Positions 36,941 to 63,536 of a DNA stretch of 64,000 bases are shown one piece after another; position 1 is the stretch's first letter, and each line of letters opens with the position of its first letter. Under the pieces are notes generated by a model. It made no database searches. It saw nothing but the letters and a program-made list of their open reading frames with translations, and had not been told where the DNA came from. This DNA comes from Tubiluchus corallicola. Its lineage: Eukaryota; Priapulida; Priapulimorpha; Priapulimorphida; Tubiluchidae. The stretch lies in the NCBI GenBank assembly GCA_030141605.1, contig JAQGDQ010000616.1, forward strand, positions 62,001 to 126,000, in the 5' to 3' direction. Position numbers and translations under genes: made by a program.

Positions 36941-37311
36941 TTAACTAGACGACCGCACTTTATTTTTTCGTCTCATATTCAGCCTGCTAACCGGTGTAAC
37001 CGCTGAAGACGCACGCGAGAAAGATCGCGAACTGGCCGTTTCCGGAGCAATGCGCTTGTTTCTCTTTCGGAAAAGTGGCGACTCCTGTGAGGCACGAGGA
37101 GCCGACCTAGTCGATCCCACCGGAGATGGCACCGAGCTTGATCTGCCACTAGGAGCAGGACTGTATCCTCTGGAACCCACCGAGCTCGCACTACGTGCTG
37201 AGTGCCCAGGTTTTTTTGACACGGCCCCAAATGCGTGGCGAGTCAGCGACGAAGCCAAGAATGCCTTGGATCTAGCCGTACGCCATCCGCTTGAAGCCCG
37301 CAAGCGTACAC
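36941..37311 (-). other. Last coding exon of the FN3/thioredoxin gene: Ser/Arg/Ala-rich tail
   Basis: Acceptor ATATTTTCAG|GTGTAC joins in phase 1 to exon 40569-40721 (GAAG|GTATGT), completing a Gly codon. It encodes about 123 residues rich in Ser, Arg and Ala with low complexity, ending VRSSS-stop. It is GC-rich compared with its surroundings, so long frames also exist on the plus strand and in another minus frame. The phase match and acceptor pick this one. The tail is probably disordered; its phosphorylation is only inferred from composition. Confidence 0.65.

Positions 37312-63536: not shown

Follow-up and report, generated by a model that had tools for sequence, protein, structure and literature searches.

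A predicted priapulid gene that may join an FN3 array to a CxxS thioredoxin-like domain and a basic tail

This locus raises the question of whether a single gene on the minus strand encodes both an array of FN3 domains and a thioredoxin-like domain, and what such a protein would do in the cell. For the window (the whole 64,000-nucleotide stretch of Tubiluchus corallicola DNA that was analysed), a sequence-only reading had proposed a chain of 19 phase-consistent exons. The chain was rebuilt from the sequence, and the coordinates proposed earlier, 36941-63536, agreed to a base. Read from 63535 down to 36941, the joined exons gave 1285 codons with a single terminal stop and no internal stop; an alternative donor of exon 3 (61191 instead of 61152) gives a protein of 1272 amino acids and leaves the phase unchanged. 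All 18 introns end in AG and 17 start with GT, the remaining one, after exon 12, having a GC start (CAG followed by GCAAGT, 47960).

Phase was taken into account when the splice sites of the 19-exon model were picked, and its consistency throughout thus gives the model no independent support. A partial, phase-blind check was made with 14 core exons picked by eye, in which the splice sites of nine neighbouring pairs were scored regardless of phase. The top-scoring sites were phase-matched in six of the nine pairs, one pair gave a tie that included the right phase, and in two pairs the right site ranked second, by 0.1 score units. Codon scores, trained on 1151 codons outside the gene, placed the chosen frame above the other sense frames (three compared) in every one of the 19 exons, and an antisense frame scored higher in two of them (exons 1 and 19). 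The GC content of the exons (0.45–0.57) was in all 19 cases above that of their own flanks (0.24–0.41), the value for the window being 0.355.

An unconstrained exon search returned 54 exons, many of them short or doubtful and some inside minisatellites, and selection by eye reduced these to 19. Since part of the training of its codon table came from the FN3-thioredoxin gene itself, the coding score from that search is circular. There may be extra coding exons upstream of 63535, beyond the window, of which 465 bases remain on that side. This remainder (63536-64000) was also searched for X-box motifs with a ciliary promoter in mind, giving no match at up to one mismatch and two matches at two mismatches (63927 and 63831); the idea was dropped because two-mismatch matches are scattered over the window. 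Searches for RNA genes gave no matches in Rfam and no tRNA (bacterial code). Pfam matches identified neighbouring genes for a formyl transferase (1018-1398, minus strand), a NIP7-like protein (7068-7610, minus), an MXRA7 helical domain (13751-14446, plus), a DHH/DHHA2 protein (17153-18331, plus), which we take to be prune-like, TMEM187 (24821-25633, plus) and RD3 (27241-28986, minus). Among them, at 21059-22515, about 49 copies of a 30-bp unit make up a minisatellite that is open in several frames.

The combination of an FN3 array with a thioredoxin-like domain looks unusual; FN3 arms and thioredoxin folds are each common alone. No named animal protein or family is known to us in which an FN3 array is followed by a thioredoxin-like end in such an order. 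Literature searches on FN3-thioredoxin fusions found nothing relevant; one candidate source, PMC10768655, was set aside, as it concerns CALHM6. It is rather probable that the gene belongs to an invertebrate orthologue group of ordinary distribution that public databases already list as uncharacterised or with a generic FN3 name. The exons look intact, their coding composition looks constrained, and automatic annotation of such genes is common. The gene may well be widespread but unnamed, and if the orthologue group is already annotated it is an ordinary uncharacterised gene.

The FN3 array was the better supported part of the predicted protein. On the joined protein, the Pfam family fn3 matched six stretches with 120.2 bits (E 4.5e-35). 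Eight FN3 segments were delimited by eye, and six of these matched fn3 individually at E ≤0.0011, one passing the curated cut-off alone. The seventh reached E 0.033 only, and the eighth had no fn3 match in Pfam, being matched by the RIMBP2-like profile only (E 0.032). This profile, Ig_RIMBP2, scored 31.9 bits on the whole array against a cut-off of 27, with single segments at 17.0 and 14.7 bits. In a mutual alignment of the eight segments the one invariant column was the B-strand tryptophan. The earlier estimate of about eight FN3 domains is thus a fair count, in which six are given by the fn3 profile and the last two, FN3 7 and FN3 8, by pattern and position.

Most of these domains are split between exons. 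FN3 1 (fn3 E 9.3e-5) is divided between exon 1 (63366-63535, with the first ATG at 63535) and exon 2 (62585-62768), and FN3 2 between exon 3 (61152-61356) and exon 4 (59036-59190). Which of the two same-phase donors ends exon 3 is uncertain; with the donor at 61191, FN3 2 matched fn3 at E 6.6e-5. Exon 5 (57303-57432) encodes an acidic linker rich in Ser, Asp and Glu. Such a linker had been expected before the thioredoxin-like domain; it is present, but its position is between FN3 2 and FN3 3. FN3 3 (E 0.0011) begins in exon 6 (56215-56419) and ends in exon 7 (54833-55022), which also starts FN3 4 (E 1.3e-4). Exon 8 (54210-54516) likewise holds the end of FN3 4 and the start of FN3 5 (E 3.9e-5), and exon 9 (52251-52476) the end of FN3 5 and the start of FN3 6 (E 1.7e-7), the core of which is in exon 10 (50291-50471). 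FN3 6 ends in exon 11 (49270-49443), where FN3 7 starts; the middle of FN3 7 is in exon 12 (47960-48100), the exon with the GC donor. Exon 13 (46608-46759) contains the end of FN3 7, the start of FN3 8 and the start of an insert. As judged by eye, this insert of about 60–70 residues seems to lie ahead of the B strand of FN3 8, and continues in exon 14 (44925-45201), which also holds the B and C strands; FN3 8 ends in exon 15 (43446-43606).

Missed FN3 domains were searched for with a profile made from the eight segments of the gene itself. It recovered 13 fragments of the gene at E ≤3.3e-6, the fragment in exon 13 being poorly recovered (E 1.5). The next match was the antisense of exon 6 (E 0.035). 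Against PDB sequences, the same profile gave 83 matches at E ≤0.001; titin and fibronectin led the best 60 of these 83, and many extracellular proteins were among the matches.

A thioredoxin-like domain is predicted at the C-terminal side of the array, and is more weakly supported than the array itself. Its first half, with the active-site motif W-C-K-A-S, is in exon 16 (42536-42803), and its second half, with the cis-Pro motif GVPTF, is in exon 17 (41097-41304). When a 227-residue segment with this part was compared with Pfam, the family Thioredoxin_8 matched residues 75–176 over model positions 2–92 of 94, with E 1.8e-5 and 25.4 bits, just under the curated cut-off of 27. Because the match runs over the boundary between exons 16 and 17, it backs the joining of these two exons; GVPTF lies within it, with a proline that is presumably in the cis state. 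On the same segment, Pfam Thioredoxin gave E 0.0011, and the best NCBIfam match to the thioredoxin-like part, E 0.00074, was far under its cut-off. Twenty-one PDB sequences matched this part at E ≤5 (best E 0.018, none significant alone), and we take 19 of them to be thioredoxins, protein disulfide isomerases or other thioredoxin-fold proteins. A search of prokaryote contigs with the same part gave 52 pattern matches, none of which was confirmed as a relative. The end of the domain was placed by eye in exon 18 (40569-40721), outside the profile match, together with the segment CPVHGCELC. W-C-K-A-S, VPTF and CPVHGCELC, all named in the sequence-only reading, are found in the joined protein.

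In the active site the first cysteine is kept, and Ser replaces the second, so that there is no CxxC motif. Ser is encoded here by TCG, from which TGT and TGC are each two changes away, and a single sequencing error would therefore fail to explain the CxxS site. With the second cysteine missing, ordinary reductase activity is unlikely, which leaves the binding or trapping of partners; CxxS sites can still form mixed disulfides. A reading that is possible, though less likely than not, is that this part is a purely structural module with no thiol chemistry, in which the kept cysteine is incidental. The loss of the second cysteine and the Thioredoxin_8 score below the cut-off would fit such a module, as would the existence of other thioredoxin folds that act as binding modules, but the residues that serve the chemistry, namely the tryptophan, the first cysteine and the cis-proline, have all been kept.

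Exon 19 (36941-37311) encodes the last 122 residues and the stop. This tail consists of 31 Ser, 19 Arg, 15 Ala, 9 Pro and 7 Lys among other residues, has a net charge of +24 and contains ten RS or SR dipeptides. It is a basic, disordered-looking tail and not an RS-repeat domain, so the description of a Ser/Arg tail is right as to composition only. As for traits of an SR splicing factor, the RRM had no match in the Pfam search and the RS-repeat domain is absent. A 201-codon open frame (36945-37547, plus strand) runs antisense to exon 19, with a codon score of 28.8 against 14.3 for the sense frame over the exon. We consider it unlikely that exon 19 is wrong, the tail being foreign to the protein and the plus-strand frame, or neither frame, coding there. 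The higher antisense score speaks for this, as does the preceding intron of 3.2 kb with its 43-bp minisatellite; against it, the acceptor is good (5.1) and fits the phase, and the GC content is 0.56 compared with 0.31 in the flanks, a contrast that is blind to strand. No domain crosses the junction of exons 18 and 19, and the attachment of exon 19 is predicted from acceptor and phase only.

The junction of exons 15 and 16 is likewise crossed by no domain, and the FN3-to-thioredoxin join is predicted from splice signals only, namely the GTGAGT donor and phase. We consider it improbable that there are two genes side by side, one with the FN3 array that stops in or shortly after exon 15 and another, thioredoxin-like, that begins at exon 16. 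In favour of two genes, besides the lack of a domain across the junction, read-through of the exon 15 donor leads at once to an in-frame TGA, an AATAAA is present at 43296 in the 642-bp intron 15, and the open frame of exon 16 has an upstream ATG inside the polypyrimidine tract. Against them, exon 15 ends precisely in the consensus donor, in a phase that fits the exon 16 acceptor, and by our rough estimate one AATAAA in such an AT-rich length is about what chance would give. The splice argument is not strong, since the exon 16 acceptor scores 3.0 only, against 3.5 for an other-phase site 8 bp on.

Several introns of the 19-exon gene contain tandem arrays. Of the eight arrays, two come within 6 bp of a splice site with one edge, a threshold chosen afterwards; when arrays are placed at random, two or more do so in 2 percent of cases. 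One of them (52471-52899, 41-bp unit) has its edge 5 bp from the exon 9 acceptor, which lies within the last unit, and contains ten acceptor-like sites scoring above 4. The edge of the other (60796-61192, 56-bp unit) is 1 bp from the exon 3 donor, and this array contains seven donor-like sites; it seems to have pushed aside or obscured the donor that exon 3 originally had. The 43-bp minisatellite in the last intron (39976-40538) contains ten donor-like sites scoring above 4, and its near edge is 31 bp away from the donor of exon 18. In intron 4, a 24-bp minisatellite (58134-58714, about 24 copies) is open on both strands. Intron 10 contains an open frame on the opposite strand (49765-50121, plus) which had no match in Pfam and in which we presume to recognise the end of a pogo/Tigger-type transposase.

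We infer that the exons belong to one transcript, that the protein is cytosolic and acts as a scaffold, and that thiol binding and tail anchoring are part of its role. In hydropathy analysis of the joined protein, no membrane segment or signal peptide was evident (top 19-residue Kyte-Doolittle mean 1.3, N-terminal maximum 0.42), and a soluble scaffold is favoured because no membrane segment was evident. What weakens the cytosolic reading is that the PDB sequences matched by the FN3 profile include many extracellular proteins and, in the best 60 of 83, no RIM-BP. The explanation that we put forward, and in which we place about as much belief as doubt, is that the stretch holds an intact animal gene, the product of which would be a soluble and probably cytosolic scaffold with an FN3 arm, a CxxS partner-binding module and a basic anchoring tail. 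About eight FN3 modules, with the acidic linker after the second, would make up an extended arm to which partner proteins bind. The thioredoxin-like module retains the nucleophilic first cysteine and the loop with the cis-proline, but a serine occupies the position of the resolving cysteine; the module would thus bind a partner, perhaps through a mixed disulfide, and would not catalyse dithiol exchange. Through its basic tail the protein may attach to an acidic surface, e.g. microtubules or RNA. Should the exons form one transcript and the single cysteine prove to be conserved, the protein would be a candidate scaffold that grips its partners through a thiol. The bolder view, that it represents an undescribed animal scaffold family in which a long FN3 arm is combined with a thioredoxin-like, monothiol client trap and a basic anchoring tail into a redox-gated adaptor, is unlikely.

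In amphioxus, one report describes 'mirages', tandem repeats over exon-intron boundaries that are possible sources of new introns (PMC3087553); the two intronic minisatellites that abut the exon 9 acceptor and the exon 3 donor may be comparable to these. Among known systems, titin-type arrays gave the best PDB matches, both for the array (E 9.4e-12) and for the profile of its own FN3 segments (E 2.2e-34), but the other titin domain types had no match in Pfam, and a thioredoxin-like end is found instead.

RIM-BPs carry SH3 domains and three FN3 domains. The RIMBP2-like profile matches the whole array above its cut-off, which may be a likeness to them. SH3 domains are absent here (no SH3 family in Pfam at E ≤1), Drosophila RIM-BP (6q9m) matched the array at E 0.73 only, and no RIM-BP was among the best 60 of the 83 PDB sequences matched by the FN3 profile. 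The thioredoxin-like part resembles Thioredoxin_8 (nucleoredoxin-like) and TlpA-like thioredoxins in its near-full model coverage, WC motif and cis-Pro, and resembles TlpA/ResA in an insert between the central strands; it differs from them in having CxxS and not CxxC, in a score under the cut-off and in the attached FN3 array. In ERp44, a CxxS thioredoxin-fold protein, the active site is CRFS. A secretory signal, unlike in ERp44, was not evident here from hydropathy. The likeness is one of active-site description: both retain the first of the two cysteines but not the second, an arrangement that allows mixed disulfides.
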